A DNA stretch of 64,000 nucleotides from NCBI GenBank assembly GCA_013178295.1, contig JABLWW010000014.1, forward strand, positions 62,001 through 126,000, given 5' to 3'. The position numbers and the translations under genes were made by a program. This stretch comes from Anaerolineae bacterium (GTDB taxonomy: Bacteria; Chloroflexota; Anaerolineae; Anaerolineales; Anaerolineaceae). The notes below the pieces were generated by a model that had not been told where the DNA came from, searched no databases, and saw nothing but the letters and a program-made list of their open reading frames with translations. Below, piece by piece: positions 29,322 to 60,383 of the stretch. How positions within the stretch are numbered: the stretch's first letter is position 1; each line of letters starts with the position of its first letter.

Positions 29322-30941
29322 TTAGGTTTTCTTCTGTCGAGAGCGCGGATGGGGAATTGCCACCTGAAGGAGGGTTCCGCTGCCATTGCAGTTCTGAATG
29401 CTCAGATGCCCGCCTAGCAACGCTACCCTTTCAGTGATTCCCAGCAGACCGTAATGTTCCTTTGCTGCCATCGTGGAAAGGTCAAAATCCGCTGGCAGGC
29501 CTACGCCGTCGTCCGCAACAGAGAGCAGAATGGTGCGCGGTGTGGAATGTTTGAGGCTGATCCGAACATGTTGCGCGTTAGCGTGTTTTTCGATGTTCCT
29601 CAAGCTTTCTTGAATGATGCGGAAGATGGAAAGTTCGGTGGCTTCGGGTAGCCGGATGAGGCGCGGGTCAATGTTCAGTTCAACGGGAATGTTGGTTCTC
29701 TCTTTCCAACCATCAACAAAGGAGGTGATGGCTGAACCCAGCCCTAAACTATCAATTGTCGGTGGGCGCAGATTGCTACATATCTGCCGCAGTCCTTCCA
29801 CCAGTTTACGAATATCGTAGCGGATAAAGCGCAGGGATTCTCGAATTTTAGCAGGGGTTTTTTCGTTCTGCTCAATCCGCTCCAATTGGTAATTGAGCCG
29901 CAGCAGGTCTTGTATGCTCTGGTCATGCAGCTCCCTTGCCAGCGATTTGCGCTCGTCCTCGCGGTTGGAGAGCAAACGACGGTGCGCATCCTGAAGCGCC
30001 TGATTGGCTTTGTTCAGCGCCAACACCTGTTCGTTGAGCTGTTTGAGGAGCTGTTTGTTCAAGGAGTCTTGAGCGGCTAGGTCTCTTTCGAGCAGAATCT
30101 GGTTGTGGCGCAGAATTTCTGCCCGTTCACGTGCCCGATAGTAGCTGTCTAGTGCCCAAATCAGCGGGGTGATTTGCTGCTGGTCAGTGGTGCCAACCAG
30201 ATCGGCTACCAGGGTCTCGCGGTTGACTTCGTCCGTTCTGTAAGTCGCCACCAGACATCCCTCGCGTAGTACAAGGATGCGGTCAGTAACTGTAAAGAGA
30301 TGGTCGAGATTGTTGCTGCTAAAGATGACAGCTTTTCCCTCCCTCTGCCACTGCTGAATGAGCGTCAGCAGCCTTTGCTGATAGTGAAACCCAAGCAGGG
30401 CAGCGGTGTCGTCCACTAGAATCATGCGCGCTGGTTTGATCATTGCGCGGGCAATGGCAATCAGCTGGCGGTACTCGATGGAAAGGGTATTGATGTTGTC
30501 GTGCAGCGATGGCAGCGAAACATCCAGCTGGCTGAGCACCTCGCTGGCAATCTCGTCCATCTTCTTTTGCGGAGAGATGAGCCTTTTGCCCTTCCACTGT
30601 GGGAAGCCAAGCTCATTGCCCAAAAAAATGTTGGCACAAATGTCGAGATCTTCCACAATGCGCGGCTCCTGGTGGATAACCTCGAACCCAAAACTGCGCG
30701 AGTTAAAGGGCCAGCGCAGCCGTTTGCCGTCAAAGCGCATCTCGCCCTGATCAGGGAAGTGAATGCCAGCCAGGATAGAAGCCAAAACTGACTTTCCTGC
30801 GCCGCCCCATCCAGCAAGCCCCACCACCTCACCGGCAAAGACTTCAAAGCTGATATCTTTGAGAACCAGCAAAGGGCCTAGATGTTTGGTCAGTCTGCTG
30901 ACCTTTAACAGAGGTACATCGTCATCAAGAAAGGGACACAT
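29322..30941 (-). CDS. Sugar-ABC-type ATPase domain fused to a NarL/LiaS-type sensor histidine kinase
   Basis: About 539 residues, cytosolic, no membrane helices. Residues 10-250 form one ABC domain like the first half of RbsA-type ATPases: Walker A GWGGAGKS (44-51), Q-loop EVIHQEP, NIFLGNE, signature LSIEYRQ (153-159). The Walker B reads MILVDDTAAL, not DEPTAAL, and the switch histidine is Asn (FSSNNLD, N210), so hydrolysis should be weak or absent. Residues 260-325 form a coiled coil. A HisKA_3 dimerisation helix carries H339 in SLARELHDQSIQDL, and an HATPase domain has ESLRNIEKHA, VADDGVG and GLLGITERV. The ATG at 30941 overlaps the regulator stop by 17 nt; an upstream TTG at 30974 is possible. 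Its partner is surely the response regulator encoded just upstream. The ATPase part is most likely a sensor of transporter state or sugar flux. Confidence 0.9.
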   Translation of the reverse strand: MCPFLDDDVPLLKVSRLTKHLGPLLVLKDISFEVFAGEVVGLAGWGGAGKSVLASILAGIHFPDQGEMRFDGKRLRWPFNSRSFGFEVIHQEPRIVEDLDICANIFLGNELGFPQWKGKRLISPQKKMDEIASEVLSQLDVSLPSLHDNINTLSIEYRQLIAIARAMIKPARMILVDDTAALLGFHYQQRLLTLIQQWQREGKAVIFSSNNLDHLFTVTDRILVLREGCLVATYRTDEVNRETLVADLVGTTDQQQITPLIWALDSYYRARERAEILRHNQILLERDLAAQDSLNKQLLKQLNEQVLALNKANQALQDAHRRLLSNREDERKSLARELHDQSIQDLLRLNYQLERIEQNEKTPAKIRESLRFIRYDIRKLVEGLRQICSNLRPPTIDSLGLGSAITSFVDGWKERTNIPVELNIDPRLIRLPEATELSIFRIIQESLRNIEKHANAQHVRISLKHSTPRTILLSVADDGVGLPADFDLSTMAAKEHYGLLGITERVALLGGHLSIQNCNGSGTLLQVAIPHPRSRQKKT

Positions 30942-31980
30942 CCGCAATAATTTGTCGTAAGGAAGCAATATCAATATCCTTTTTATCCAAAAAAGCTATT
31001 GCCCCAGCTTCAGTACTCATGCGGTGGAATTCTTTATCGGGGTAAGCGCTGATGACTACAATTTTGAGGTTGGCGTCCTTCTTGCGTAGCAACTTGGCAC
31101 ACTGGATGCCGTCTTCTTTACCCAAAATGACATCTACAAGAACTAAATTGGGCGAGATATGCTCGATCAGATGCACGGCTTCGCATGTATTTTCTGCCTC
31201 ATAAACCATTGTCTTGGGAGAGACGATGTTGATCGTTTGACGCAGTTCGTAGCGGAAGCGGGCGTTGTCATCTACCAGTAGAATGGATGTCATTGATTGC
31301 ACAGTAAAATTAACCTTCTCCGTTTCTATGTTTGCTTGTGGGGACGCCGCGCTGAGGATTTCGGGGTGTTGTAGGGCAAAATTGACCGCTTCCAAGCGGC
31401 TCTGCACGTTCAACAGGCGGTAGAGCTTGGTGAGGCAGTTCTCTACTGTCTTGACGCTAATCCCCATTTTGAGGGCAATGTTGCGGTTATCCAACGATTG
31501 CATCAGCAGTTGCAGCAGACTGCTTTGACGCGCGGTGAGCACGATAGGGGGCTTTTTGCGTTCGTCCGGATGGAGCAGCTTGTTGACCAGCGGGCTGGCG
31601 ATCCACTTCTCGCCGCTCAGCACCTGATCGACCGCCATTTTGAGTTGAGGAATGGGCTGACCTTTGAGATGGTATCCATCGGCGCCAGCCGATAGCAGCC
31701 CCTTGACGTAGAAATCATCGTCGTAGGCGCTGATGACCAGAATTTTCAGGTTGGGGTAAGCGGCTTTGATCTTACCCAATGAGGAAACTGGTTCAAAGGC
31801 GGGCATGGTAACATCCAGTAAGAGCAGACTCGGCGCTGTTTCTGCCAGCTGAGCAAACAACGAGGGACCATCCCATGCTTCGCCCACGATGAGCATGTCC
31901 TCGTATTGCTCCAAAATGTCGCGGATGCCCTGCCGTACCAGGCTGTGATCATCAGCGATTAATATCCTCGTGGAAGGCAT
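30925..31980 (-). CDS. Response regulator with REC-LuxR HTH-REC architecture
   Basis: A 351-residue cytosolic regulator. REC1 (1-125) has D10/D11, phosphoacceptor D56 (LLLLDVTMP) and K106. A NarL/LuxR-type HTH follows (147-205: LTARQSSLLQLLMQSLDN, then MGISVKTVENCLTKLYRLL). A linker leads to a second complete receiver (231-351) with VDDN, D283 (LVLVDVILG) and K333 (FLDKKD). NarL-family regulators normally stop after the HTH, so the C-terminal receiver is unusual. It is the first gene of a two-gene operon with the ATPase-kinase, whose start it overlaps. It is divergent from the GH35-CUT2 operon, its most likely target. The -10 lies 6 nt before the ATG with no ribosome binding site, so the mRNA is probably leaderless. 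Confidence 0.92.
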   Translation of the reverse strand: MPSTRILIADDHSLVRQGIRDILEQYEDMLIVGEAWDGPSLFAQLAETAPSLLLLDVTMPAFEPVSSLGKIKAAYPNLKILVISAYDDDFYVKGLLSAGADGYHLKGQPIPQLKMAVDQVLSGEKWIASPLVNKLLHPDERKKPPIVLTARQSSLLQLLMQSLDNRNIALKMGISVKTVENCLTKLYRLLNVQSRLEAVNFALQHPEILSAASPQANIETEKVNFTVQSMTSILLVDDNARFRYELRQTINIVSPKTMVYEAENTCEAVHLIEHISPNLVLVDVILGKEDGIQCAKLLRKKDANLKIVVISAYPDKEFHRMSTEAGAIAFLDKKDIDIASLRQIIADVSLS

Positions 31981-31995: not shown

Positions 31996-32182
31996 CATCT
32001 TCGTTGTGATACGGATGGGGGTTTTCCCCTATCCCCAAAGAGGGAATTTTCTAGCTGGGGAGGGGGTTATTCTCTACACTGTGGGGAGGGAGAAATATGT
32101 TACATTGTCTTTTAAACTCTGCGGCACAGCTCTCAGCAAACAACAGTCACGTCTTTTATTTCTTTTTCACAGGAGGTTATCT

Positions 32183-34285
32183 ATGCCGGGTCGTTTACCT
32201 ATACTGGTTGGGGATCACCAGTTCCGAATTAATGGAGAGGAGGTTCCCGTTTACAGCGGCGCTGTTCACTATTGGCGGCTGGAGCGCGACAAATGGGATG
32301 ACATCCTCGAAAAGGTCAAAGGGATGGGATTCAACACTATCACCTCATATATCCCATGGGAGGTGCACGAAATCCGTCGCGGTGAGTTTGATTTTGGCCA
32401 AATCAACCCAAGCAATGATATTGATGCTTTTATAACGCTGGTCGAATCGAAGGGTATGAGGATGATTGTCCGCCCGGGTCCGCAAATCAATTCCGAGTTG
32501 ACTTGGTTTGGCTATCCGCGGCGCATTTTGGAAGATCCTGAGCTTCAGGCAAAGACTGCTATGGGCAGTAAAGCCATTCTGACCCAAGTGCCCAAGCCCA
32601 TCCCGGCACTGAACTACGCCTGCGACAAATTCTTCGAGGAGACTGCTATCTGGTTTGATGCCATTATGCCCATTTTGGCGAAACATGCTTATCCAAAGGG
32701 TAATTTGGTTGCTGTTCAGGTGGATAACGAGATGGCTTTCTTTTTTCACATCAACCCGTATGAATGCGACTTCAGTGCTGATGCCATCCGCAACTATCAG
32801 AAGTTTCTGCAGCAAAAGTACGGCAGTCTGGACGAACTCAATTCGGTGTACCGTTGCGGGTATGCTAGTTTTGAAGAGGTGCAGCCCCCCAAGCGGTTTG
32901 AGGGCGAGAAAAAGGAAGACATTCCCTACTATACTGACTGGATCGAATACCGCGAGCGTTATCTGGTCGATTCGCTCTCGCGCCTGGCAGATATGATGCG
33001 AGCGCGCGGGTTGGAAAATATTCCTCTCTTCCACAATTACCCCCATCCGCTGGGCCCAGGTGGCGCTGCTAGCGGGATCACCACTCCCTTTAACCTGCTT
33101 GCACTGGAGGATAAGCTGAATTTTGTCGGTTTTGATATTTATTCGCGCCGTGAGCTATACGAGCATGTCAAGACGGTGGTTTCATACGTGGTGGGTACCA
33201 GTCGCTTTCCCTTTATCCCTGAGTTTATTGCCGGTGTCTGGCCATGGTATCTCAACCCCGGTGGATTTGAAGATGAGGAATTTGTTACGAAGGCAGCGCT
33301 CATGAACGGAATCAAAGGCTCCAGCCGTTACATGATTGTGGAGCGCAACCGCTGGCTGGCTTCGCCTGTTCGCCGTGATGGGCGTGTGCGCCCCGATAAC
33401 TACAATATGTTCAAGCGTGTCAATCAGATGGCGTTGGAAAATGCCTTTGTCGGCAATGAGCGTGTGGCGGATGTGTTGCTGCTTGCCAATCGTGAGTATG
33501 ACCGTCTGGAAGCCGCCAGCGTCCTGGTGACCTTCCCTGGTGATTTTCTGGAGGTGCTGTTTGGCTTTTCGGAATATCCCAACTATATGACTGTCTCCGA
33601 AAAGACGCTTGGCTTCTCCGAGGCAGTACAGGTGCAAAAATCCAACTGGTTCTCTCAAAGCTACAAGACCCTTACCGAAAGCGGCTATCAGTTCCTCATC
33701 AGCGATACTGATCTGCCGCTGGAGAGGTTAAAACGATACAAAGCGCTGGTGCTTGGTTCGTTTGAGTACATGAACACCGCTTTGCAGAAAAAGCTGGTTC
33801 AATTTGCAGAGGAGGGCGGCGCCGTGTTGCTTGGGCCGCGAATCCCTACGCTGAACGAGCGCATGCACAAAGACCTGACCCTGATGACGCATCTGGTTGC
33901 CGCTAACAAGCGCCTTCTCGTGCAAGATGGGGTGGAGCTTGCCCATATCTATCAGATTGGGAAAGGCTGTGTGATGGTGCTCCAGAGTCTTGACCTCCTT
34001 CCCAAAGCGCTTCCGGCGGCTTTGGACAGACTAGAACTGTCCCGTGTTGTTAAAAGCGACCCGCGATTGGATGTAACCATTCACAAATCTCCCAAGAAGC
34101 CGGATAAGATGGTGGTATTTGTGTGTAATCCTACTGCTAGCCCCATTGAAGCCGAGATTGATCTCAAGATAAAAGTCAAAACCATTCGCGAAATTTGGGA
34201 AGACCGCTTGGTCAGACATACCACAGGGACGTTTTCTGAATCCCTGCCGGCACACAAGATTATGGTTTATGAATGCACTTTGTAA
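32183..34285 (+). CDS. GH35-like beta-galactosidase (clan GH-A)
   Basis: A 700-residue, apparently cytosolic glycosidase. The N-terminus is GH35-like: VYSGAVHYWRLERDKWDDIL, then MGFNTITSYIPWEVHEIRRG and the RPGPQINSEL segment. The acid/base Glu is E183 in VQVDNEMAFF, where GH35 usually has ENEYG. The nucleophile is probably E347 in FIPEFIAGVWPW. The C-terminal half carries a beta-galactosidase trimerisation-like region (ALVLGSFEYMN, GGAVLLGPRIP) as in GH42. ATG 32183 has AGGAGG 8 nt upstream. It heads the operon with the unknown protein and CUT2 importer and is divergent from the two-component genes. It likely cleaves a beta-galactoside or related glycoside. Confidence 0.85.
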   Translation: MPGRLPILVGDHQFRINGEEVPVYSGAVHYWRLERDKWDDILEKVKGMGFNTITSYIPWEVHEIRRGEFDFGQINPSNDIDAFITLVESKGMRMIVRPGPQINSELTWFGYPRRILEDPELQAKTAMGSKAILTQVPKPIPALNYACDKFFEETAIWFDAIMPILAKHAYPKGNLVAVQVDNEMAFFFHINPYECDFSADAIRNYQKFLQQKYGSLDELNSVYRCGYASFEEVQPPKRFEGEKKEDIPYYTDWIEYRERYLVDSLSRLADMMRARGLENIPLFHNYPHPLGPGGAASGITTPFNLLALEDKLNFVGFDIYSRRELYEHVKTVVSYVVGTSRFPFIPEFIAGVWPWYLNPGGFEDEEFVTKAALMNGIKGSSRYMIVERNRWLASPVRRDGRVRPDNYNMFKRVNQMALENAFVGNERVADVLLLANREYDRLEAASVLVTFPGDFLEVLFGFSEYPNYMTVSEKTLGFSEAVQVQKSNWFSQSYKTLTESGYQFLISDTDLPLERLKRYKALVLGSFEYMNTALQKKLVQFAEEGGAVLLGPRIPTLNERMHKDLTLMTHLVAANKRLLVQDGVELAHIYQIGKGCVMVLQSLDLLPKALPAALDRLELSRVVKSDPRLDVTIHKSPKKPDKMVVFVCNPTASPIEAEIDLKIKVKTIREIWEDRLVRHTTGTFSESLPAHKIMVYECTL

Positions 34286-34305: not shown

Positions 34306-35112
34306 ATGTTACACGAAAACCCCCTGATGGCAGATATTGATGTTGATCATTGGAGAAATATGCAGCAGTTGCTGTTGGAATCATCCAAAACCAAGCGCAG
34401 AATTATCATTATTCATGAACAGGGCGAGATTCTGAAGTTTATCCATTCACAACGGCTGGAGATTGTCAAGCGTGTTGAGCGTGTGGATGATCCGCAAAAG
34501 ACTGCTGAAAAGGTGTATAAAGATAATGCCGCCATTACCGATTTTGTGATGGTGCTAGAGCGCAAAAGTGTTGAGCGCTACTTTGCCAAAGTTCAAGATT
34601 CGTGGACAGCCGCAGAGGATCTGGATGTCTATGTTCACCGCATGTTTGCCATGCTGGATGAGTACCCCGATGGCATTGTTACCTACCCGGGGCGCGCCCG
34701 TGTCAATCTCGGTTTACAGTGGCGGGTGGGTGCCAAGTACGAAAGCGTCCAAGAAGCCGTGCGCAGATTTGTCCCACCGCAGAGCACTGTCTTCTTTGGC
34801 ATTTTTGAGGGCAATCGCCTTTGGGCAAGCCTGTTGCTGGGTTTTGACGCCGAGAGGAAGATTGACATCATCACCACCGCCGATCCCAGCGAGCTTTCTC
34901 TAACGGGAGACTGGCAAGAGCAGTCGAAACAGTTGGTCGAGTGGGTCAACAAAAAATACCCACGCTGTGCGATTGGCGTCTTCACCAGTCTTGAGGATGC
35001 TAAACGCATTCTGAAAGATGAGGAGAAAATGAAACGGATTGCTGAAGCGCGCCAACGGGGCGGTCTGTTGATTGATCCACTGCCAGCAGTGCTGAGCGAG
35101 GCGCTGGGCTGA
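34306..35112 (+). CDS. Conserved-looking protein of unknown function
   Basis: 268 residues, no signal peptide and no membrane helix. I do not recognise the family. It looks alpha/beta: an N-terminal strand-helix unit (RRIIIIHEQGEILKFIHS), a charged helical stretch (50-110), and a C-terminal half with STVFFGIFEGNRLWASLLLGF and CAIGVFTSLEDAKRIL. A possible start is ATG 34306 after GAGGAGG. It lies 20 bp after the glycosidase gene and about 100 bp before the CUT2 binding protein. It belongs to the putative ATPase-kinase system block and has no counterpart in the other three importer operons of this window, which makes it a candidate accessory component. Confidence 0.75.
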   Translation: MLHENPLMADIDVDHWRNMQQLLLESSKTKRRIIIIHEQGEILKFIHSQRLEIVKRVERVDDPQKTAEKVYKDNAAITDFVMVLERKSVERYFAKVQDSWTAAEDLDVYVHRMFAMLDEYPDGIVTYPGRARVNLGLQWRVGAKYESVQEAVRRFVPPQSTVFFGIFEGNRLWASLLLGFDAERKIDIITTADPSELSLTGDWQEQSKQLVEWVNKKYPRCAIGVFTSLEDAKRILKDEEKMKRIAEARQRGGLLIDPLPAVLSEALG

Positions 35113-35180: not shown

Positions 35181-35212
35181 AAATATACATAGTGAAGAAA
35201 GGAGAAATTGAG

Positions 35213-36490
35213 ATGAAAAGTAGATGGTTTTATATTGTGTTAGGTTTGACTTTGGTCTTGGGCTTGATGGGGACGGGTTGCACGCCTGCCCCCGCTGCCC
35301 CGCCAGCAGAGGCCCCCGCTGCTCCGCCAGCAGAAGCCCCCGCTGCCCCGCCTACCGAGGCGCCTGCTGCTCCGCCAGCAGAAGCCCCCGCTGCCCCGCC
35401 TACCGAGGCGCCTGCTGCTCCGCCAGCAGAAGCCCCTGCCGCTTTTGACCCTGTTGCCGCTCTGTCAGCGCTCGAAGGGCAAGTCTTTTCCACCGGGCCG
35501 CGCGGCGAGACCCCCACGGCTGCCAGCGAGGTAGCCCTCTCGGAGGAGGATCTGGCAAAAATCAAGGAAATGAAAGCCAAAGCCGCTATTGTCCTGCACT
35601 ACGCCGGCAATGACTGGTCCAGCGCTCAGGTGGCAGGGCTGAAAAGTCAGTTTGAGAAAATGGGAGTAGAAGTAGTGGCCGTAACTGATGCCGGCTTCAA
35701 GCCTGAAAAACAGGTGTCAGATATTGAGACTGTTCTGGCAATGAAACCCAACATCATCGTTTCTATTCCTACCGACCCGGTCGCGACGGCTTCCGCCTAT
35801 AAGAGCGCTGCGGACGCCGGCGTTAAGTTGGTCTTTATGGATAACGTTCCCAATGAAGTAGAGCAAGGCAAGGATTATGTCAGTGTCGTCTCTGCCGATA
35901 ATTATGGCAACGGCATTGCCGCGGCACATCTGATGGCGAAGAGCATCAACGGTGAAGGAAAAATTGGCGTGATCTATCACGAAGCTGATTTCTTTGTTAC
36001 CAAGCAGCGCTATCAGGCGTTCACCAAAACCATCAAAGATAATTACCCTGCTATCGAAATTGTCGAGGAGCAGGGCATCACCGGGCCAGATTTTGCTGGC
36101 GATGCGGAGAAAGCCGCCTCGGCGATGATGACTAAGCACTCCGACCTAAAGGGCATTTGGGCGGTTTGGGATGTGCCTGCTGAGGGGGTGATGGCGGCTG
36201 CCCGCGCCATGGGGCGCGATAAGGATTTGGTCATTACCACCATTGACCTTGGCTTGAACGTGGCGGTGGAAATTGCTAAAGATGGCATGGTCAAAGGGCT
36301 TGGCGCGCAGCGTCCGTTTGATCAGGGTGTTACCGAAGCTATATTGGCAGGCTACGGGCTGTTGGGTAAGGAAGCCCCTGCCTATGTGGCGCTGTACATG
36401 CTCCCAGTGGATAAGAACAACGTTCTGGAAGCGTGGAAGACGGTCTATCATTCCGATCCTCCTGCTGACCTTGTCAATGCGGCAAAGTGA
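35213..36490 (+). CDS. CUT2 sugar ABC transporter substrate-binding lipoprotein
   Basis: A 425-residue RbsB-type lipoprotein. The lipobox MGTGC gives C23; the spacer to about residue 80 consists of repeats of APAAPPAE and APAAPPTE encoded by a 48-bp tandem repeat. The ligand-binding domain starts near residue 120 (KAAIVLHYAGNDWSSAQVAG) and shows VSIPTDPVATASAYKSAADAG and FMDNVP. ATG 35213 has AAAGGAG upstream; a GTG at 35192 is in frame but precedes that site. It delivers substrate to the importer encoded at 36587 and 38092. Confidence 0.92.
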   Translation: MKSRWFYIVLGLTLVLGLMGTGCTPAPAAPPAEAPAAPPAEAPAAPPTEAPAAPPAEAPAAPPTEAPAAPPAEAPAAFDPVAALSALEGQVFSTGPRGETPTAASEVALSEEDLAKIKEMKAKAAIVLHYAGNDWSSAQVAGLKSQFEKMGVEVVAVTDAGFKPEKQVSDIETVLAMKPNIIVSIPTDPVATASAYKSAADAGVKLVFMDNVPNEVEQGKDYVSVVSADNYGNGIAAAHLMAKSINGEGKIGVIYHEADFFVTKQRYQAFTKTIKDNYPAIEIVEEQGITGPDFAGDAEKAASAMMTKHSDLKGIWAVWDVPAEGVMAAARAMGRDKDLVITTIDLGLNVAVEIAKDGMVKGLGAQRPFDQGVTEAILAGYGLLGKEAPAYVALYMLPVDKNNVLEAWKTVYHSDPPADLVNAAK

Positions 36491-36586
36491 TTTTTTTTGA
36501 CAGGCTCTGTTTCTCCCCGGCGGGGCAACCCGCTGGGGAGAACGACCGGTGTATTCCCAGATAGGTGTGGAAAGGTTCCCAACAAG

Positions 36587-38095
36587 ATGAGACCGATTGT
36601 CGCCGCTATGCGGGGAATCGTTAAAGAGTTTAATCATATTCGAGTGCTGGATCAGGTACATTTTGAACTGCAGCAGGGTGAGATTCATGCTTTGCTCGGG
36701 GAAAATGGAGCAGGCAAATCAACCCTGATGAAGATATTGCGAGGTGTTTATTACCCCGAAGAAGGCGAAATTTTGATTGGAGGAAAGCCCGTGCGGTTGC
36801 GTTCGGCGCAAGATGCGCGCGCCAACGGGGTTGCAATGGTCTTTCAGGAATTTAGTCTGGTGCCTTCTTTGACAGTCGCCCAAAATATCTTTCTGACACG
36901 CGAATCGCGCAGCCGATTGGGGCTGATTGACGACCGTCGCGATAAAAAAAGAGCGACAGCGTTGCTACGGGAAATGGGGGTGGAGTTGGATCCGGGACTG
37001 CGGGTGGAACAATTGAGCACGGGCTATCGCCAGCTCACCGAGATTGTTGCCGCTCTCTCACAGGATGCGCAGATTCTTATCCTTGATGAACCGACTGCTT
37101 CCTTGACCCATACTGAAACGATGGCGCTTTTCAGCCTTTTGCGCAGACTCAGGGAGCGCGGTATCTCCATCATTTATATCTCGCACCGTATGGAAGAGGT
37201 CTTTCAGATTGCGGACCGCGTAACTGTGTTGCGGGATGGTAAAAATATTATTACCGAAGATATCCAAAACTTAACCATTCAACAGGTCATTGAGTATATT
37301 CTTGGACGCAAGGCAAACGACGAAGTCCCTCGCTCTGCATTCCAGCATGAGCCCGGCTACGTTCCTTTGCTTGAGGTAGTGCGTATGAACTGCGGCAGGG
37401 GTGTGCGGGATGTCAGCTTTCGTCTATATTCTGGTGAAGTGCTGGGCATTGCCGGGTTGATGGGTAGTGGCAGAACTGAACTGGCTCAAACGCTGTTTGG
37501 CATTACCCCGCCGCAGTCGGGTGAGATCTACGTGCGGGGAAAGAGAGTTGTCATTGCCAGTCCCGAAGACAGCATGAGGGCGCGCATGGCGTTTATTCCC
37601 GAAGACCGGCGTCAGCAAGGGTTAATTACCATGCATACCATCAAGGATAATTTTGAGCTTCCATTGGTGGTTTTAGGCAGATTGGCAAAGCGAAAAATAT
37701 GGGTGGATGACCGTCGCTCTGCTAGCCTTGCCGAGACCTACGTACAGCAGCTCAAGGTGCGCACTGATTCAATCTACAAAGAAGTGCGTTTGCTCTCGGG
37801 AGGCAACCAGCAAAAAATTGTTATCGCCAAGTGGCTCAGTACCGACCCCGATATTCTCATTATGGATGAGCCAACTGCTGGTGTGGATATTGGTACGAAA
37901 ACGGAGATCCTGGAGTGTGTACGGCAATTGGCAAATAAAGGCAAGGGCGTGCTCATCATCTCTTCTGAATTGCAGGAACTGCTCGCGGTCAGCGATCGTA
38001 TAATTATCCTCAAAGAGGGCAGCATCGTGCAGGAAATGCAGCGCAGTGACATTCAAAGCGAACAGCAACTACATCATATTCTTCAGGGAGCGTGA
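36587..38095 (+). CDS. CUT2 sugar ABC transporter ATPase (RbsA/XylG type, tandem domains)
   Basis: A 502-residue tandem ATPase. The first domain has Walker A GENGAGKST (38-46), VFQEFSLVP, signature LSTGYRQLTEIVAAL and Walker B LILDEPTASL with switch ISHRMEE, all intact. The second has GLMGSGRTE and LSGGNQQK with IMDEPTAGVD. The start at ATG 36587 has AAAGG 11 nt upstream; the open frame begins at 36497 inside intergenic sequence. It overlaps the permease start by 4 nt (GTGA). Its first domain is the closest relative in this window of the sensor ATPase domain at 29322, especially around GYRQ versus EYRQ. Confidence 0.94.
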   Translation: MRPIVAAMRGIVKEFNHIRVLDQVHFELQQGEIHALLGENGAGKSTLMKILRGVYYPEEGEILIGGKPVRLRSAQDARANGVAMVFQEFSLVPSLTVAQNIFLTRESRSRLGLIDDRRDKKRATALLREMGVELDPGLRVEQLSTGYRQLTEIVAALSQDAQILILDEPTASLTHTETMALFSLLRRLRERGISIIYISHRMEEVFQIADRVTVLRDGKNIITEDIQNLTIQQVIEYILGRKANDEVPRSAFQHEPGYVPLLEVVRMNCGRGVRDVSFRLYSGEVLGIAGLMGSGRTELAQTLFGITPPQSGEIYVRGKRVVIASPEDSMRARMAFIPEDRRQQGLITMHTIKDNFELPLVVLGRLAKRKIWVDDRRSASLAETYVQQLKVRTDSIYKEVRLLSGGNQQKIVIAKWLSTDPDILIMDEPTAGVDIGTKTEILECVRQLANKGKGVLIISSELQELLAVSDRIIILKEGSIVQEMQRSDIQSEQQLHHILQGA

Positions 38096-39099
38096 AACCA
38101 GTGATTGAAAAAACTTCTTCCGACAACCATCCCCCTGTTTCCATTTCTGCCGCTTTTACTCATTTTTTCAGGCGGTTTTATTGGCGGGATTACGTTGTTT
38201 ATATGACCTTTGTAGTCATCTTTGCCATCTTTGCGGTGGCGTTGTATCCCAGTGGCTTTCTCAATCCCAACAATCTGCTCAATATTTTGAGACAAACCGC
38301 TACCATCTCGGTGATGGCAGTGGCAATGACCTTTGTACTGGCGGCGGCAGAGATTGACCTTTCGGTTGGTGCGGTGGCGGGTTTGGCTTCGGTAGTCACC
38401 GCAATGAGCATTGCCAGGTATGGTATTGTTGCTGGCGTTGTGGCGGGTTTGACCACAGGGCTTTTGGTGGGGTTGATAAATGGTTTTTTGGCAACTCGCA
38501 TTGGTATCCCCTCGTTTTTGGTAACATTGGGAATGCAAGGGATTGCGACTGGCACCGCCATGTGGGTAACACAAACTGCCCCTATCCCCATTGCTAACCA
38601 AATGTACACCTACATCTTTGGCTCCGGAAACGTTGGCCCCATCCCAACTTTGTTTATCTGGACTCTGGCAGTTTTCCTAACGGGGCATTTATGTCTCAAA
38701 GCAACACCGTTTGGACGCCAGGTACTCGCCACTGGCGGCAACGAGACAGCGGCAAGGTACAGTGGCATCAACACCAAAAAGATCAAGTACATTACCTTTG
38801 TGGTCATGAGCATGATTGCTGCTCTGGCAGGGATGCTATATGCTGGACGTCTCCATTCGGGGCGATTTCAGTGGGGGCAGGGGGATGAGCTATCGGTGAT
38901 TGCGGCGGTGGTTTTGGGGGGTACCAGTCTGTTTGGCGGGAAAGGATCTGTAATTGGCACCATCATCGGAGCAATTTTGATTGGTCTGATCAACAATGGT
39001 CTGATACTGATGGGTTTGGAAGCAAGCCAGCAGATGATTGTACGCGGCGCCATCATCATTTTTGCGGTGGCGCTGACCGGCAGAAAGGCGCAAAGCTAG
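38092..39099 (+). CDS. CUT2 sugar ABC transporter permease (RbsC type)
   Basis: A 335-residue membrane permease with about eight to ten helices. Family motifs are VMAVAMTFVLAAAEIDLSVGAV and AAVVLGGTSLFGGKGSVIGT. It starts at a GTG inside the ATPase stop. It is the only permease of this system, so the channel should be a homodimer. That leaves two identical docking sites, normally filled by the RbsA tandem ATPase. The sensor ATPase-kinase at 29322 could in principle compete for such a site. Confidence 0.93.
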   Translation: MKPVIEKTSSDNHPPVSISAAFTHFFRRFYWRDYVVYMTFVVIFAIFAVALYPSGFLNPNNLLNILRQTATISVMAVAMTFVLAAAEIDLSVGAVAGLASVVTAMSIARYGIVAGVVAGLTTGLLVGLINGFLATRIGIPSFLVTLGMQGIATGTAMWVTQTAPIPIANQMYTYIFGSGNVGPIPTLFIWTLAVFLTGHLCLKATPFGRQVLATGGNETAARYSGINTKKIKYITFVVMSMIAALAGMLYAGRLHSGRFQWGQGDELSVIAAVVLGGTSLFGGKGSVIGTIIGAILIGLINNGLILMGLEASQQMIVRGAIIIFAVALTGRKAQS

Positions 39100-46510: not shown

Positions 46511-48838
46511 TTGAACGGGCTTGCTGTGCTCCGCCGCTGTTCATCCGTTGCCGCAGTTGTGTTGCGGCGATGGGCGGGGGTGTGTCTTGCCCTCGTCCTG
46601 CTGGCGTTTCCCTTGGCTGGTGGTGCGCATGCCGCTCAGTCCGTGCCTGCCCACCCGGCGATGGTGCTCATCCTCAATTCCTACCATCCCGGTTTGCCCT
46701 TTTCGGATGGCGAAATGGAGGGCATCCGCTCCACCCTGCCGCCCGATACGATCTACCGCATCGAGTACATGGACTCCAAGCGCATTGCCAGCGATGCCTA
46801 CCGCCGTCTGCTGTTTGAAACCTATCAGATGAAATACGCCACCCAGCGTTTTGACCTGATCTTCTCGCTGGATGACGATGCCCTGCACTTTTTGCTGCAA
46901 TACGGCGATGCCCTTTTTCCCGATACGCCGGTGGTCTTTTGCGGCGTCAACCGCTTTGAGGATGCCATGCTGGAGGGGCATGCGCAGTACACCGGCGTGG
47001 TGGAGACGCTGGACAACGAGAAGACGATTGAGGTTGCGCTGCAGCTGTGGCCCAAAGCGCAGCGCGTGCTGGTCATCACCGATAACACCACCACCGGAGT
47101 GTTCAACCGCCAGTACGTCCAGCGTCTGGCGCAGAGCGGTTCTTTTGACGTTCCGCTGGAGTTTCTCGACCGCGGCGAGGGGCTGCTGCTGAGCGAGCTT
47201 GTTGAGGCGGTGCGCCGCGCCCCGCCTGACAGCGTCATCTACTACGCCGACTTTTTTCAGGATCGCAGTGGGAAGACGCTTGACCCGGGGCAGGTGATGG
47301 AAGCTGTTTCGGGGGCGGCGCCTGTGCCGGTCTTTGTGCATGGCGCGATGTATCTGGGGCATGGGGCAGTGGGCGGCAAGGTGAGCGGGGGCAGGTATCA
47401 GGGCGAGGAAGCCGCCCGGCTTGGGCTGCGCATTCTGCAGGGGACGCCCGCGGCGCAAATCCCCGTGCAAAAAGACCCCGTGACGCGCTACACCTTTGAC
47501 GCACGCCAGCTCAAACGCTGGAATATTTCGTCCTCTTTGCTGCCGCCGGAGAGCGTGGTGATCAACCGCACCGATACCTTCTATCAGCGGTATGCGCTCT
47601 ATATCTGGGCGGCGGCGGCTTTTATCCTCGTCGAAACCATCCTGCTGGCGGGGCTGGTGTTCAACTTTCTCCAGCGGCGGCGGGCGGTTGCCCGTCTGGC
47701 GCGCAGCGAGGAGCGCTTCCGTCAGCTGGCAGACCTGCTGCCCCAGCCGCTGTTCGAAGCCGATCTGCAGGGCAGGGTGACGTTTGCCAACCAGCAGGCG
47801 TACCGCACCTTTGGCTACCAGCCGCAGGAAGTCGAGGATGGGCGGGTGAGTGTGTTCGATGTCATCGCCCCCAGCGAGCGCCAGCAGGTGGCAGACGATT
47901 TGCGTAGCCTGCTGCAGGAGCATAGCAAACACCGCGAGTATCTGGCATTGCGCGGGGATGGCAGCACCTTCCCGGCGGATGTGTACGTCTCGCTGATCCA
48001 CGACAACGGCCGACCGATTGGTCTGCGCGGGCTGGTGATTGACATCAGCGAGCGCAAGGAGATGACCGAGCGCATGATCCAGTCGCAGAAGCTTGCCGAT
48101 TTGGGCACGCTGGCGGCAGGCATTGCCCACGAGATCAACACCCCGCTTCAGGTCATCACCGCCAGCAGCGAAAACCTGCTTGCCAGCCTGCGCCGCGGAG
48201 AGGTGCAGATCGAAAGTTTGCAGCGGCGGGTGGATCACATCCACACCAGCGGCTGGCGCATCGCCGCTATCGTCAAATCGCTGCTTGCCTATGCCCGTCA
48301 AAGCGAGGGGCAGATGGGGCGGCATCACCTCAACGACCTGGTGCAAAACGCCCTGCTGCTGGTGGAGCACCAGATACGGGTGTGGTCGAACGTGCAGGTG
48401 ATGTTTGAGCCTGGCGCTGACCTGCCGGAGTTGACCTGCGATGCCAACAAGATCACGCAGGTCATCCTCAACCTGCTGACCAATGCCCGCGATGCCATGC
48501 CGCACGGCGGAAGTATCATCCTGCGCACCGGCTTTGACGCCGAACGCGGCATGCTCACCCTGACGGTCAGCGACACAGGCGAGGGCATGTCGGCTGAGGT
48601 GCAAAAGCGCATCTTTGATCCTTTCTACACCACCAAGCCGCCGGGCAAGGGCACCGGGCTGGGGCTTTCGATTGTCTTTGGCATCGTGCGTGCGCACGGC
48701 GGTGAGATCGCGGTGCAGAGCGCCCCGCGAGAGGGCAGCACCTTTGTGGTGTGTCTGCCCCTTCAGCCGCCGCCCGCGCAGGAAACGCCGGACGACGCGG
48801 CGGAGGAGCCGCTGCCCCCGCGCTGGAGGGAAACGTGA
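46511..48838 (+). CDS. Membrane sensor histidine kinase with ABC-substrate-binding-like sensor and PAS domain
   Basis: 775 residues. A signal/anchor (17-42) is followed by an extracytoplasmic domain of the ABC_sub_bind type (VLILNSYHPGLPFSDGEMEG, DLIFSLDDDALHFLLQYG, PVVFCGVNRF) to about 345. Then come one membrane helix (YIWAAAAFILVETILLAGLVF), a PAS domain (395-515), a HisKA-type dimerisation domain with the phosphorylated His in AAGIAHEINTPLQVI, and an HATPase (N-box LTNARDAM, DTGEGM, GTGLGLS). No receiver is attached. The start at TTG 46511 is uncertain. It overlaps the next gene by 4 nt (GTGA), so it probably feeds a response that includes cyclic-di-GMP synthesis. Confidence 0.9.
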   Translation: MNGLAVLRRCSSVAAVVLRRWAGVCLALVLLAFPLAGGAHAAQSVPAHPAMVLILNSYHPGLPFSDGEMEGIRSTLPPDTIYRIEYMDSKRIASDAYRRLLFETYQMKYATQRFDLIFSLDDDALHFLLQYGDALFPDTPVVFCGVNRFEDAMLEGHAQYTGVVETLDNEKTIEVALQLWPKAQRVLVITDNTTTGVFNRQYVQRLAQSGSFDVPLEFLDRGEGLLLSELVEAVRRAPPDSVIYYADFFQDRSGKTLDPGQVMEAVSGAAPVPVFVHGAMYLGHGAVGGKVSGGRYQGEEAARLGLRILQGTPAAQIPVQKDPVTRYTFDARQLKRWNISSSLLPPESVVINRTDTFYQRYALYIWAAAAFILVETILLAGLVFNFLQRRRAVARLARSEERFRQLADLLPQPLFEADLQGRVTFANQQAYRTFGYQPQEVEDGRVSVFDVIAPSERQQVADDLRSLLQEHSKHREYLALRGDGSTFPADVYVSLIHDNGRPIGLRGLVIDISERKEMTERMIQSQKLADLGTLAAGIAHEINTPLQVITASSENLLASLRRGEVQIESLQRRVDHIHTSGWRIAAIVKSLLAYARQSEGQMGRHHLNDLVQNALLLVEHQIRVWSNVQVMFEPGADLPELTCDANKITQVILNLLTNARDAMPHGGSIILRTGFDAERGMLTLTVSDTGEGMSAEVQKRIFDPFYTTKPPGKGTGLGLSIVFGIVRAHGGEIAVQSAPREGSTFVVCLPLQPPPAQETPDDAAEEPLPPRWRET

Positions 48839-51525
48839 GCGCGGCGCGCAGGCTTCTGCCTTCCTTTATGGAAGAATCGGATGGGGCGATCCTTCTGCTG
48901 GACGCGGCCGGGGGAGTGCTGGAGGGCAATGCCGCTGGAAGACGGCTGGCGGCTTGCCTGCTGTGCGGAGAGGGGGAGGGTGCGCGGCTTGCCGACCTGC
49001 TGCCGCAATGGGTGCAACAGGCACAGGGAGGGACGCTGCGGCGCACCTGCTGGTTGGAGGATGGGAAGGAACGCAGTTTTGAAGCCCGTCTCAGCTCTAT
49101 TTCCAAGCGCGGCACGGCACGCTGGATGCTGCTGCTGCACGACATCACCGATCTGACGCAGATGCAGGAAGACCTGCACCGCGAGCGCAGCCTGCTGCGC
49201 ACGGTGATTGATAACCTCCCCGATGCCATCTATGTCAAAGACCGCCAGGGGCGCAAAACGCTCGCCAACCCGGCGGATTTGCGCAACGCCGGACTGAGCG
49301 ACCCCGCCCAGGCGCTGGGCAAGACCGATATGGAGGTGTTTTCGCCCGATTTTGCCCGTCAGACACACGCCGACGACCAGGCGGTGATGCGCAGCGGCGA
49401 GCCGCTGCTGCGGCGCGAGGAGCTGCTCGTCAGACCCGACGGCCAACAGCGCTGGCTGCTCACCTCTAAAATCCCCCTGCGCGATGCGCACGGCGAGGTA
49501 ATCGGGCTGGTGGGCATCGGGCACGATATCACCGAGCGCAAACAGATGGAGCAGGCGCTGGGCGAAAGCGAAGCGCGCCTGCGGGCTATTTTTGAAAACA
49601 GCCCGATCGGCATCCTCACCACCGACGCCGACGGGCTGGTCACCGCCATCAACGCCGCCTACCTGCGTATCATCGGCGGCGAGGGGCGCGCCGATGCGAT
49701 TGTGGGCAAGGTCAAAATGCCCGAACTGGAGAGCATGAAAAGAGCCGGGGCGCAGCGTCTGTGGCGGCAGCTGTTTGAGCGGGCAAAGCCCTTCAAAGTC
49801 GAGCTGACCTTTGAGACCACCTTTGGCAAACGTCTGACAGCGGCTTACTCGGCTGTGCCGCTGTTGGACGAGAACGGACGCATTACCGGCAGCGTGGTGT
49901 GCATCGAAGACCTGAGCGAGTATTACCGCGCCCGCCAGACAGCCGAAGCCCTGCGCAGCGTGGCGGAGCAGCGCGCCGCCGAAGCCGAAACCCTGCGGCT
50001 GGCGGGCGCGGCGGTGGCTTCCAGCCTCAACGCCGAGGAAATCATCCACCGCATCCTTGAGCATCTGCAGCGTGTCGTCCCCTATTACAGCGCCACTGTC
50101 CAGCTGGTGCGCGGCGAAGAGGTGGAGGTGGTGGGGGCGCACGGCGTGGAAGCGCATGTGCTGCTGGGCAAACGGTTTTCGATCTCCTCTGGCACGCCCA
50201 ACGCCGAAATTTACCGCCAAAAATGCCCTCTGCTGGTCACAGACCCCGCTGGACGTTACCCGAACTTTGACCTGCCCGACTATCACTCGATGGCGGAGTG
50301 GCTGGGCGTGCCGCTCGTCTTTCAGGGGCGTGTGCTGGGGATTCTGGCGCTCGATTCGCCCTTGCCGGGCTATTTCAGTGAGCAGCGCATCCGTCTGGCG
50401 TGCGCCTTTGCCGACCAGGCTGCCATTGCGCTCGAAAACGCCCGCCTGTATGCTGAAGCCCAGCGCAGTGCCACCGAACAGTCCATTCTCAATGAAATCA
50501 GCCGCTCGATCTCGTCTAAGCTCAAGCTGGAAGAACTGCTGGAGGTGGTCTATGCGCAGGTCAACCGCTTTATCCCGGCGCGCAACTTTTTTGTGGCGCG
50601 CTACGATGCCGCCGCCGACGAGTGGTACACCATCTTTGCCCGCGCAGAGCGCGACTCTATTGCCGCGTTGCAGCAGCGCTATCCCTCTGACGAGGGCGTC
50701 ACCGGCTATATCATCCAGACGCGTACCCCGCTGCTGTTCATCAGCACCGACGACTATCAGGCATACCTCGAACGTACCGGGCGATCCTTTATAGGGATTG
50801 TCCCCAAATCCTGGATGGGCGTCCCGCTGATTGCCTCTGACCAGGTGGTGGGGGTGATGGCGACCCAGAATTACGAGCGCGAAAACTTTTACACCTTGCA
50901 GGATTTTGACTTCTTCAAGACCATCGCTGCCCAGATCGCGGTTGCCTTCGAAAATGCTTATCTTTTTACCCGCATGGAAGAGCTGGCAGATACCGACGCT
51001 CTGACGGGGATTTTCAACCGGCGCAAATTCTTTGCCGAAGCCGAACGAGAAGTCCAGCGCGTCCTGCGCTATCACGGCATGCTGGCAGTGGTCATGTTTG
51101 ACCTGGATCATTTCAAGCAGGTCAATGACCGCTACGGTCATGCCGAGGGCGACCGCGTGCTGCGGGCGGTGGCGCGCTGCTGCAACGAGGTGCTGCGCAA
51201 GACAGATATCTTTGGGCGTTACGGCGGCGAGGAGTTTGTTGTGCTCATGCCCGATACGGGCGTGGGGGGTGCCCGCCAGGCTGCTGAACGGCTGCGCCAG
51301 CAGGTTGCCGCCATGGGGATGCCCACCCCGCAGGGCGAAGTGCAGGTGACCGCCAGCTTTGGCGTGGCTGTGCTGGGCGGTGAATGCCAGACGCTGGATG
51401 CCTTGCTGGTCAATGCCGACCAGGCGATGCTGCAAGCCAAGCGCATGGGGCGCAACCGCGTCCGGGTGTATACGCCGGGCATGGCCGCAGACGACGCAGA
51501 GGGTTCACAGATGGCGCAGATGTAG
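48835..51525 (+). CDS. PAS/GAF-regulated diguanylate cyclase
   Basis: 896 residues, cytosolic. Three PAS domains (about 10-110, 115-245, 250-370), two GAF domains (about 395-560 and 570-735) and a C-terminal GGDEF domain. The latter is complete: DALTGIFNRRKF, MFDLDHFKQVNDRYGH and the active-site loop RYGGEEF, so it should make cyclic-di-GMP from GTP. The start at GTG 48835 has GGAGGG 4 nt upstream and overlaps the kinase stop. It has no membrane helix, so its cues are probably small molecules or redox or gas signals bound in PAS/GAF. Confidence 0.92.
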   Translation: MSAARRLLPSFMEESDGAILLLDAAGGVLEGNAAGRRLAACLLCGEGEGARLADLLPQWVQQAQGGTLRRTCWLEDGKERSFEARLSSISKRGTARWMLLLHDITDLTQMQEDLHRERSLLRTVIDNLPDAIYVKDRQGRKTLANPADLRNAGLSDPAQALGKTDMEVFSPDFARQTHADDQAVMRSGEPLLRREELLVRPDGQQRWLLTSKIPLRDAHGEVIGLVGIGHDITERKQMEQALGESEARLRAIFENSPIGILTTDADGLVTAINAAYLRIIGGEGRADAIVGKVKMPELESMKRAGAQRLWRQLFERAKPFKVELTFETTFGKRLTAAYSAVPLLDENGRITGSVVCIEDLSEYYRARQTAEALRSVAEQRAAEAETLRLAGAAVASSLNAEEIIHRILEHLQRVVPYYSATVQLVRGEEVEVVGAHGVEAHVLLGKRFSISSGTPNAEIYRQKCPLLVTDPAGRYPNFDLPDYHSMAEWLGVPLVFQGRVLGILALDSPLPGYFSEQRIRLACAFADQAAIALENARLYAEAQRSATEQSILNEISRSISSKLKLEELLEVVYAQVNRFIPARNFFVARYDAAADEWYTIFARAERDSIAALQQRYPSDEGVTGYIIQTRTPLLFISTDDYQAYLERTGRSFIGIVPKSWMGVPLIASDQVVGVMATQNYERENFYTLQDFDFFKTIAAQIAVAFENAYLFTRMEELADTDALTGIFNRRKFFAEAEREVQRVLRYHGMLAVVMFDLDHFKQVNDRYGHAEGDRVLRAVARCCNEVLRKTDIFGRYGGEEFVVLMPDTGVGGARQAAERLRQQVAAMGMPTPQGEVQVTASFGVAVLGGECQTLDALLVNADQAMLQAKRMGRNRVRVYTPGMAADDAEGSQMAQM

Positions 51526-51550
51526 CGCAGTCGTTTGTCCGCATTTTTGG

Positions 51551-51599
51551 TTGACGGGGGGTGTGAAGGTTGCTATAATGTGAATGCACACGTGTGCAT
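51551..51599 (+). promoter_or_regulatory. Promoter and perfect palindromic operator of the LacI-family gene
   Basis: TTGACG (51551-51556), 17 bp, TATAAT (51574-51579). Directly downstream lies ATGCACACGTGTGCAT (51584-51599), a perfect 16-bp palindrome over the transcription start. This is the expected place for LacI-type autorepression. Confidence 0.85.
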
Positions 51600-51612
51600 C
51601 AAGGAGACTGCC

Positions 51613-52644
51613 ATGCCGGTAACCATCAAGGATATCGCCAGAAAAGCGGGTGTCTCGCACGCCACCGTTTCGCGCGCTCTCAACGGCAGTCCGCTGATCT
51701 CGCAAGAGACCACGCTTGCCATCCGCAAGCTGGCGGAGGAGATGGGTTACCTGCCCAGCGCCGCGGCGCGCGGGCTGAAGACCAGCCGCTCGCATGTGCT
51801 GGGGGTGATCGTCAGCCGCATCGGCAACCCCTATTTTGGCGAGATTGTTCAGGGGATCGAGGATGCCCTCAAGGGCACAGCCTACAGCATCTTTGTCGCT
51901 TCTTCGCATCTGGATGCCGCTGTTGAGGAGAATATCGTGCGGGCGTTTGGTGAGCATCGCGTGGACGGTGTCATCGTGGCAACTGCCTCCTTTAGCCGCA
52001 GCCAGGTGCACCTGCTGCGCCGTTACGGCATTCCCATTGTTGCCATCAATTCCTCCTCACCGCAGGATTACCGCTTTTGCATTGCTCATGATGATGTCTA
52101 TGGCGCCCGGCAGGTAGCCCGTCATCTGATTGCGCTGGGACACCGCCGCATTGCCTATATCGGCAACATGCGCGCCGCGCAGATCAACCATGACCGCATT
52201 GTGGGCTTCAAACAGGAGATGGAGAGCGCCGGGATTGCGCTGGATGCCAATCTGATGATCAATCTGCAGTGGAGCGAGATCGAGAACGGCGTGGAGGGAA
52301 TGACCACCCTGATGAGGCGCAAAGACAGACCCACCGCCGTTTTCTGTTTCAACGACCTGATTGCCATTGGCGCATTGCAGGTGGCGCAGCGCATGGGCAT
52401 TCGCGTGCCGCAGGAGATTTCCATCACTGGTTTTGACAACATCACCTACTCTGCCTATACTCTTCCGGCGCTGACCACCTTTGACCAGCCCAAACGGCTG
52501 ATTGGCGCCGAGGCGGCTGGTATGCTGCTGGATTTGATCAACCGCCGCGGCAGTGGCGGGGACGATGAGCGGGCGGCGCCCGCCGCGCGGCTGCTGCGCG
52601 GCAAACTGCTGGTACGCGAGTCCACTGCCCGCTGTATGTCTTAG
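51613..52644 (+). CDS. LacI family transcriptional regulator
   Basis: 343 residues. The N-terminal HTH (VTIKDIARKAGVSHATVSRA) is followed by the hinge helix (AAARGLKTS) and a periplasmic-binding-protein-like effector domain (VLGVIVSRIGNPYFGEIVQG, VDGVIVATA, PTAVFCFNDLIAIGAL, ISITGFDNI). AAGGAG precedes the ATG. It has its own promoter with a perfect operator. No catabolic genes are adjacent: the upstream gene is a cyclase and the downstream gene is convergent, overlapping it by 4 nt. Its targets may therefore be elsewhere. Confidence 0.95.
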   Translation: MPVTIKDIARKAGVSHATVSRALNGSPLISQETTLAIRKLAEEMGYLPSAAARGLKTSRSHVLGVIVSRIGNPYFGEIVQGIEDALKGTAYSIFVASSHLDAAVEENIVRAFGEHRVDGVIVATASFSRSQVHLLRRYGIPIVAINSSSPQDYRFCIAHDDVYGARQVARHLIALGHRRIAYIGNMRAAQINHDRIVGFKQEMESAGIALDANLMINLQWSEIENGVEGMTTLMRRKDRPTAVFCFNDLIAIGALQVAQRMGIRVPQEISITGFDNITYSAYTLPALTTFDQPKRLIGAEAAGMLLDLINRRGSGGDDERAAPAARLLRGKLLVRESTARCMS

Positions 52645-58124: not shown

Positions 58125-58215
58125 AAGAGCAGCCCGTCCCGCAAAAGAGGATCTGTTTTTTTTTATTGTAGTATGAAATAGAAGAAAAAGCTATGCCGTC
58201 GGCGCGGCTGTTTTT

Positions 58216-59880: not shown

Positions 59881-59885
59881 TTATA

Positions 59886-59894
59886 TTATAGCAT
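59886..59894 (-). promoter_or_regulatory. Extended -10 promoter placed for a leaderless kinase mRNA
   Basis: On the minus strand TGCTATAAT is a perfect extended -10, followed by 5 nt and the kinase ATG at 59880. No ribosome binding site can fit between them. Confidence 0.65.
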
Positions 59895-59946
59895 AATACC
59901 TCAGCGGCGGATTCGTTTTTGTAAGGTGTCTGCAAGGTCAAAGGTA

Positions 59947-59974
59947 TTGAATTTTTTGTGGTTCACCCTATAAT
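59947..59974 (+). promoter_or_regulatory. Promoter of the pilin-like gene
   Basis: TTGAAT (59947-59952), 16 bp, TATAAT (59969-59974). The ATG lies 55 bp downstream, with AAAGGAG at 60013. Confidence 0.7.
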
Positions 59975-60029
59975 ATAAAGCATGGAAGCGGGTTATTCCA
60001 AATTTTGAAAAGAAAGGAGTTGAGCAGTC

Positions 60030-60176
60030 ATGTTATTCGCACCGAAGGAAAAAGGTCAAGGTCTGGTAGAGTATGCCTTAATTCTTGTTTTGGTAGCTGT
60101 CGTTGTGATTGTTATTCTTGCTCTACTTGGTCCTGCAATCGGTAACATCTTCAGCAACATCATCAACGCCATTTAG
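60030..60176 (+). CDS. Flp/Fap-type pilin (48 residues)
   Basis: A small gene encoding 48 residues: a short charged N-terminus (MLFAPKEKGQG), then the class III (Flp) signature GLVEYALILVLVAVVVIVIL with the Glu at +5 of the mature pilin, and a short tail (GPAIGNIFSNIINAI). Prepilin peptidase would cut after the Gly. Base composition is lower in GC than its neighbours. It stands alone with its own promoter, ribosome binding site (AAAGGAG) and terminator; no Tad secretion genes are in the window. It would need a Tad-type machine encoded elsewhere. Confidence 0.88.
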   Translation: MLFAPKEKGQGLVEYALILVLVAVVVIVILALLGPAIGNIFSNIINAI

Positions 60177-60208
60177 GCATAACCCGACCTACCCAATGTA
60201 TTCCCGAC

Positions 60209-60236
60209 AAAAGACCCCGCCAACGCGGGGTCTTTT
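60209..60236 (+). terminator. Strong intrinsic terminator after the pilin gene
   Basis: A perfect 12-bp stem (aaaagaccccgc / gcggggtctttt) with a CAAC loop. The flanking A and T tracts make it functional in both directions. Confidence 0.92.
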
Positions 60237-60292
60237 GTATTGGGCTACGCATGTTCGCAGGGCGGGGTTCACCCCGCCGTTGCCGATGGGGC

Positions 60293-60340: not shown

Positions 60341-60383
60341 ACTGCGGGTGGCGGGCGTCTTGCGATGGGGCTATGGGGGGCAG

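Follow-up and report, generated by a model that had tools for sequence, protein, structure and literature searches.

A histidine kinase joined to a degenerate sugar-importer ATPase domain in Chloroflexota, and its possible place in permease-based receptors

The window, that is, the whole 64-kb stretch of DNA analysed here, encodes a protein of 539 residues (P0001; 29322..30941, minus strand) in which a degenerate ATPase domain of the CUT2 class of sugar importers continues, in a single open reading frame, into a histidine kinase. We consider it reasonably probable that this protein is a soluble kinase whose crippled CUT2 ATPase acts as an input domain docking on a permease, and that it controls sugar uptake together with a response regulator of REC–HTH–REC architecture. 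A more specific proposal, toward which we lean by a little, is that an ABC importer has been made into a receptor: the sugar-binding protein (SBP) would capture the ligand, the permease would signal, and the pseudo-ATPase–kinase would stand in for the ATPase and control an adjacent true importer. The case is built from sequence comparisons, namely the fusion and its conservation, the motif losses, the gene neighbourhoods, a clade of dedicated permeases, the co-variation of these permeases with the ABC half, the family of the regulator and a palindrome in its promoter.

The fusion protein and its family

The sequence-only reading of this DNA had described one uninterrupted frame, 29322-30941, joining an RbsA-type ABC domain to a HisKA_3/HATPase kinase. 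Both the open reading frame (539 codons) and Pfam bear this out, with ABC_tran at residues 27-180 (E 2e-20), HisKA_3 at 330-394 (1e-11) and HATPase_c at 436-531 (4e-9). By the nearest ABC models and motif alignment, the ABC (NBD) half comprises residues 11-250 (30192..30911). It is followed by a linker of fixed length, residues 250-330 (29952..30194), delimited by alignment and predicted to be one long helix, then by the HisKA_3 dimerisation and phospho-acceptor domain (29760..29954), and finally by the HATPase_c catalytic domain (29349..29636), with its conserved N-box and G-boxes; all of these lie on the minus strand. The kinase half is a HisKA_3 kinase in its residues, as the phospho-acceptor H339 is invariant in 80/80 members and N449, D477, G479, and G481 are nearly so, and UhpB is a high-scoring model for it. 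The nearest named models of the ABC half are the N-terminal halves of AraG, YtfR, XylG, AlsA, and RbsA, and in a domain tree the ABC halves of the fusions form the sister group of the single-domain ATPases plus the RbsA N-halves. Models and tree thus agree on homology to the CUT2 (RbsA) importer ATPases, but the layout is not that of RbsA, the single ABC domain being fused to a kinase instead of doubled or free-standing.

The protein is soluble. Its best 19-residue hydropathy mean is 1.47, compared with 2.6-2.8 in permeases, and none of its 19-residue stretches reaches transmembrane hydropathy. A fold model recovers the ABC fold and the long helix only (mean pLDDT 63, pTM 0.45) and is weak because it was predicted without homologues. 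The 3.95 Mb genome from which the window comes has one copy of the fusion.

Full-length homologues are found in dozens of genomes, and the fusion is therefore real and not a product of sequencing error. Leaving out the window's own genome, 61 of the 396 genomes surveyed in the class have matches at E < 1e-100. These number 63, far more than chance would give, and most of them align across both halves at 40-59% identity; in a survey of the phylum (400 genomes), 27 match at E < 1e-70, many of them from other classes. Chloroflexus aurantiacus is among the dozens of Chloroflexota genomes with the full-length fusion. No full-length match was found among PLSDB plasmids, where none covers 80% of the protein, and a related-locus search returned only unrelated ABC proteins. 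In 78/80 members the linker between the ABC and kinase halves is 81 residues long, the remaining 2 having 80, and residues P259, W262, L277, R322, and E328 within it are invariant. Two genes joined by a sequencing error, the circumstance that the sequence-only reading had named as fatal to itself, are thus ruled out by 80 aligned homologues with a linker of constant length. As judged from these comparisons, the fusion family is ancient and conserved. In one member (L136:7154-10681), the frame continues beyond its usual end, to 1175 residues, through low-complexity sequence resembling the antisense of another gene.

The motifs of the 80 fusions were compared with those of CUT2 ATPases encoded in the same neighbourhoods, 12 with a single domain and 44 with two. 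The window's ABC half keeps Walker A (GWGGAGKS, K50) and the Q-loop Gln (Q91), as had been read from the sequence; across the fusions, the Walker A Lys is present in 73/80 and the Q-loop Gln in 69/80, and the segment after the Q-loop, NIFLGxE (N104, F106, L107, G108, E110), is kept. The signature, which the same reading took to be kept, is not: LSGGQ is replaced in the window by LSIEYRQ, with E156 (codon 30474..30476, minus strand) in place of the signature Gly. In the alignment of all 80 members, 79 have Glu as this fourth residue and one has Asp, so the change is common to the family. In transporters the position is Gly in all 12 single-domain proteins and in every C-half (44/44), and 43/44 N-halves have either Gly or Ala there. 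The switch His, correctly reported as Asn in the window (N210), occurs in 0/80 fusions versus 56/56 single-domain and N-half transporter ATPases. Replacement of the Walker B Glu-Pro pair holds for the window, where the motif reads VDDTAAL (D177-D178, Asp for Glu), but not for the family, in which the catalytic position is Glu in 34/80 and Asp in 34/80.

With Glu in place of the signature Gly and without the switch His, the ABC half would be unable to run an ATPase cycle; in the window, the signature Gly, Walker B Glu, and switch His are all replaced (E156, D178, N210). A working transport ATPase is ruled out by these losses. Blocked turnover had been proposed before and now stands on firmer ground, although the reason is partly a different one, the signature Gly-to-Glu change together with the loss of the switch His. 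The signature change corresponds in position to G551D (LSGGQ to LSGDQ, Gly to Asp), a gating mutation of CFTR. G551D causes a severe gating defect in CFTR (PMC3434365). In the fusions, a change resembling G551D has been made permanent by evolution.

ABC domains dimerise and HisKA_3 kinases require dimers, so the observed fusion could be explained if the ABC half had been inherited for dimerisation only and sensed nothing. We regard this as highly improbable, given that the Q-loop and docking segment, Walker A and a linker of constant length are kept family-wide and that the neighbours of the fusion genes are importer parts.

Gene neighbourhoods and dedicated permeases

Neighbourhoods of up to 20 kb around 79 homologues were collected and, with the window, make 80 loci. 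The fusion does co-occur with CUT2 genes, a point that the earlier reading had proposed to check: a CUT2 permease or binding-protein gene is present in 66/80 loci, a permease in 60, and a regulator of the window's type in 53. For background, the share of a genome lying that near any CUT2 permease was taken from 20 of these genomes; it averages about 3% and does not exceed 7% (both upper bounds). Since the loci are related, no probability is attached to the contrast. Several gene orders recur in separate lineages. In the Herpetosiphon-type genomes (L139-L142, L144, L145), CUT2 genes adjoining the fusion are absent. The fusion gene of these genomes is found downstream of a radical-SAM (MqnC/MqnE-like) gene.

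In the receptor-type (R) arrangement, the kinase gene comes directly after those for a dedicated permease and, in most cases, an SBP, with a regulator gene ahead of the permease. No ATPase is encoded between permease and kinase, and the genes are mostly ≤50 nt apart. This arrangement is found in 16 loci (L042, L043, L045, L046, L048, L051, L053, L055, L058, L077, L101, and L134-L138). The kinase of L135 and L136 is preceded by a longer gap, with less secure gene calls in between. L045, L046, L077, and L134-L138 have no regulator in this position; theirs is at another place or past the end of the contig. Loci L134-L138 have an SBP–ATPase–permease set and, behind it, another permease, in most cases another SBP, and then the kinase, which consequently occupies the place expected for an ATPase. 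The SBP of the operon is dedicated to the kinase in, for example, L055, L058, L101, L134, L137, and L138; the binding protein of the window is part of a full transporter operon. Among PDB structures, the second-best match of the receptor-type binding protein is the arabinose-binding protein 6sw4. Replacement of the ATPase beside an otherwise complete pump in several relatives suggests that a transporter has been turned into a sugar receptor. Given that the dedicated permease of 16 relatives has no ATPase of its own, the importer would have become a receptor, and we consider the receptor reading likely for the R loci.

The binding proteins show some peculiarities of their own. CUT2 binding proteins near the fusions are often 600-1440 aa long, with two to four binding-protein domains per chain. 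Such long genes occur in L042 (13120-16065), in L043, in L064 and in 16 others, as well as in the window's genome (C5, C8, C20), and L042 has three nearly identical long copies. In L053 (2748-4865), permease and sugar-binding protein form one chain of 705 residues with an extra membrane segment between them.

In a tree of 78 permeases, the 16 from R loci form one clade with support of 95/95. Closest to this clade stands the permease of a transporter in L042; there, the R locus and that transporter have a binding protein of the same kind in common. The permeases of L057, L068, L081, and L083, automatically labelled as dedicated, were left out of the R set because they sit in transporter clades. 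The coupling helix, by which a permease engages its ATPase, reads x(R/S)(S/D)ERAL in the R permeases, the GN and the second Ala being lost, whereas the transporter permeases keep GGN..A(A) in 56/57 cases.

Across the 16 R loci, distances among ABC halves and among permeases are correlated with an r of 0.87. With the kinase half as a control for shared descent, the partial r between ABC half and permease is 0.68 (jackknife 0.64-0.74, partial Mantel p 0.001), and that between kinase half and permease, given the ABC half, is 0.01. The corresponding ABC half–permease values in two transporter-type clades are 0.03 and 0.15. In the eight loci with both kinds of permease, the partial r is 0.61 with the R permease and 0.36 with the transporter permease. 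Co-variation of the ABC half with the R permease, in this small sample, is an indirect sign of docking, which would predict it. Together with the 16 R loci in which no ATPase stands between permease and kinase, it lends support to the earlier suggestion that the degenerate ATPase would serve as a permease-docking sensor.

A cytoplasmic sensor of nucleotide or energy status, whose ABC half binds ATP or ADP alone and for which the CUT2 genes are mere regulated targets, would fit the retention of Walker A in most members of a family whose catalysis seems to be abolished. Some members do lie away from CUT2 genes, and regulator genes commonly adjoin their target operon. Such a sensor would leave unexplained the operons of permease, with or without SBP, and kinase that have no ATPase, as well as the dedicated permease clade and the co-variation just described, and for these reasons we find it quite unlikely.

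The second (T) arrangement is that of a complete transporter beside the kinase or sharing its operon. A complete transporter is nearby in 49 loci, including the window's, often in one operon in which the kinase gene is last. It could therefore be proposed that the kinase is a sensor of transporter activity, with its ABC half pairing or competing with the active ATPase on a working CUT2 transporter, and that it reports flux, much as BceS does for the cycling of BceAB. Several loci have single-domain ATPases of 254-275 aa, with which mixed pairs could form, and BceAB-BceS is an established case of a kinase under the control of an ABC transporter (PMC10314905). However, an ATPase gene is missing between permease and kinase in the receptor-type loci, the transporter-type loci, where it would be most needed, show no co-variation of ABC half and permease, and the double ATPase of the window's transporter would already fill both sites. 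We think this reading unlikely.

In the mechanism that we prefer, docking of the kinase on a permease, a sugar-loaded binding protein would engage the CUT2-type permease, and the ABC half of the kinase would occupy the coupling helix, the usual site of the ATPase. Movement of the permease would then be passed through the helical linker of fixed length to the kinase core, which would phosphorylate the regulator. The regulator, in turn, would act at a NarL-like palindrome, switching on the sugar importer and the receptor itself. Docking, the direction of the signal, the ligand and the binding of the regulator to the palindrome are inferred.

The response regulator, its putative operator and the window's sugar operon

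The cognate response regulator (P0002; 351 aa; 30925..31980, minus strand) has, by Pfam, the architecture REC–LuxR-type HTH–REC, and the end of its gene overlaps the kinase gene by 17 nt. Its REC and GerE HTH domains and the conserved D56 place it among the NarL/FixJ regulators. Both REC domains keep the acidic pocket, the phospho-acceptor Asp and the Lys, the acceptors being D56 (50/50) and D283 (49/49). The second receiver, complete and situated behind the DNA-binding domain, is conserved in about 50 relatives.

An unsupervised dyad search of the regulator and binding-protein promoters returned GGGGA-N2-TCCCC in 16 loci, versus ≤3 in shuffled sequences. The extended site, TAGGGGANNTCCCCTA, is a 7-2-7 inverted repeat of the heptamer TAGGGGA. 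With ≤2 mismatches allowed, it occurs at 35 sites in 41,468 bp of SBP and regulator promoters versus 7 in 1,220,235 bp elsewhere, and it is present in 32/67 loci, whereas none of up to 30 control palindromes, made by permuting the half-sites, reaches more than 1 locus. In C. aurantiacus, two tandem sites precede the binding-protein gene. The window's putative operator, TGGGGGTTTTCCCCTA (32016..32031, no strand assigned), lies 36 bp ahead of the start of the regulator gene, in the intergenic region that separates this gene from a divergent glycosidase–transporter operon, and it is the sole site within the window at ≤2 mismatches. The window's genome as a whole has five places at two mismatches, its own included, a number not above that of a reversed-pattern control. 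Two of the off-window sites were looked at, one in a secA-like coding region and the other near an rpoB-like gene, and are taken as chance. For such palindrome-like sites, only the position is telling and not the genome-wide number. NarL dimers use a 7-2-7 inverted repeat (PMC7419079), and binding of the present regulator to the palindrome would be of this kind.

The divergent operon, on the plus strand, begins with a GH35/42-type glycosidase (Pfam; 32183..34285), whose ATG at 32183 is preceded by AGGAGG and whose longest open reading frame starts at 32006. Next come a 268-aa protein with no Pfam or NCBIfam match (34306..35112), a CUT2 sugar-binding protein (Peripla_BP_4 in Pfam; 35192..36490), an RbsA-type double ATPase whose motifs are intact on comparison (36497..38095), and an RbsC-type permease (Pfam; 38092..39099), whose coupling helix, GGNETAARYSGI, aligns with those of ordinary transporters. 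It is likely that the kinase and the regulator control this sugar operon, and possible that the kinase reads a permease. The permease at 38092, which the sequence-only reading had put forward as the partner, is not favoured: it has its own double ATPase (RbsA), it is an outlier in the permease tree, and transporter-linked loci of this sort show no specific co-variation.

In the window's genome, a 98%-complete assembly, no dedicated (R) permease was found (best 41% identity) and no R-type binding protein (best 26%). Therefore, unless these parts were missed, the receptor form does not transfer unchanged to the window, and with the dedicated permease missing, the docking partner of the window's kinase is uncertain. 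This kinase may read a working transporter, or its dedicated partner may have been lost or left unassembled. Elsewhere in the window (46511-62891), a row of genes encodes several large histidine kinases rich in PAS domains and proteins resembling diguanylate cyclases; one of these products has 1827 residues.

Relation to known systems

In the open-access literature searched, neither an ABC importer ATPase domain joined to a kinase nor a kinase replacing such an ATPase is described, in agreement with the earlier remark that no characterised sensor kinase is built this way. Kinases controlled by ABC transporters, by importer-type binding proteins and by transporter-like membrane proteins are already described. 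The transporter-built sensors known are secondary transporters, together with kinases that watch a working ABC pump. If the present proposal is true, the exchange of an ATPase for a kinase in an ABC importer would be a new way of building a membrane receptor, and it would show how an ATPase-like domain reads the movement of a permease without ATP turnover. Since there are culturable hosts, such as Chloroflexus aurantiacus, and the receptor operons are small (permease, SBP, kinase, and regulator), tests by reconstitution are possible. The palindrome is a ready reporter and offers a route to predicting regulon and ligand across the phylum.

The ABC half is homologous to RbsA, AraG, and XylG and to the single-domain CUT2 ATPases, from which the fusion differs by the Glu or Asp in the signature, the lost His, the single domain, and the kinase. 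With the NarL/FixJ regulators, the fusion's regulator shares REC, a LuxR-type HTH, and a 7-2-7 inverted-repeat site; unlike them, it has a second complete REC at its C-terminus, and the heptamer is TAGGGGA.

BceS is a kinase without a ligand sensor of its own that is controlled by BceAB and regulates the genes of that transporter (PMC10314905). The BceAB-BceS/BceR systems, which are antimicrobial-peptide modules of Bacillota, resemble the fusions in their linkage to an ABC transporter, here found in 66/80 loci. However, the membrane helices of BceS itself touch the transporter and the ATPase of BceAB works, whereas the fusion is soluble, lacks transmembrane helices of its own, and carries the ATPase-like subunit itself. 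In addition, the receptor-type operons, unlike those of BceAB, have no ATPase between permease and kinase. UhpC, a secondary transporter of the major facilitator type, is the receptor for the kinase UhpB. In CbrA, a fused sodium-solute symporter is the transporter-like sensor for the histidine kinase (PMC7096432). UhpC-UhpB and CbrA likewise have a membrane receptor derived from a transporter, but ABC importers and ABC ATPase domains have no part in either. In XylFII-LytS of clostridia and AraP-AraS-AraT of Geobacillus, an importer-type sugar-binding protein feeds a kinase that controls a sugar transporter, as would be the case here. The membrane helices of these systems belong to the kinase. 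In the receptors proposed here, by comparison, the kinase carries an ABC domain, and an intact permease of the CUT2 type would form the membrane part.
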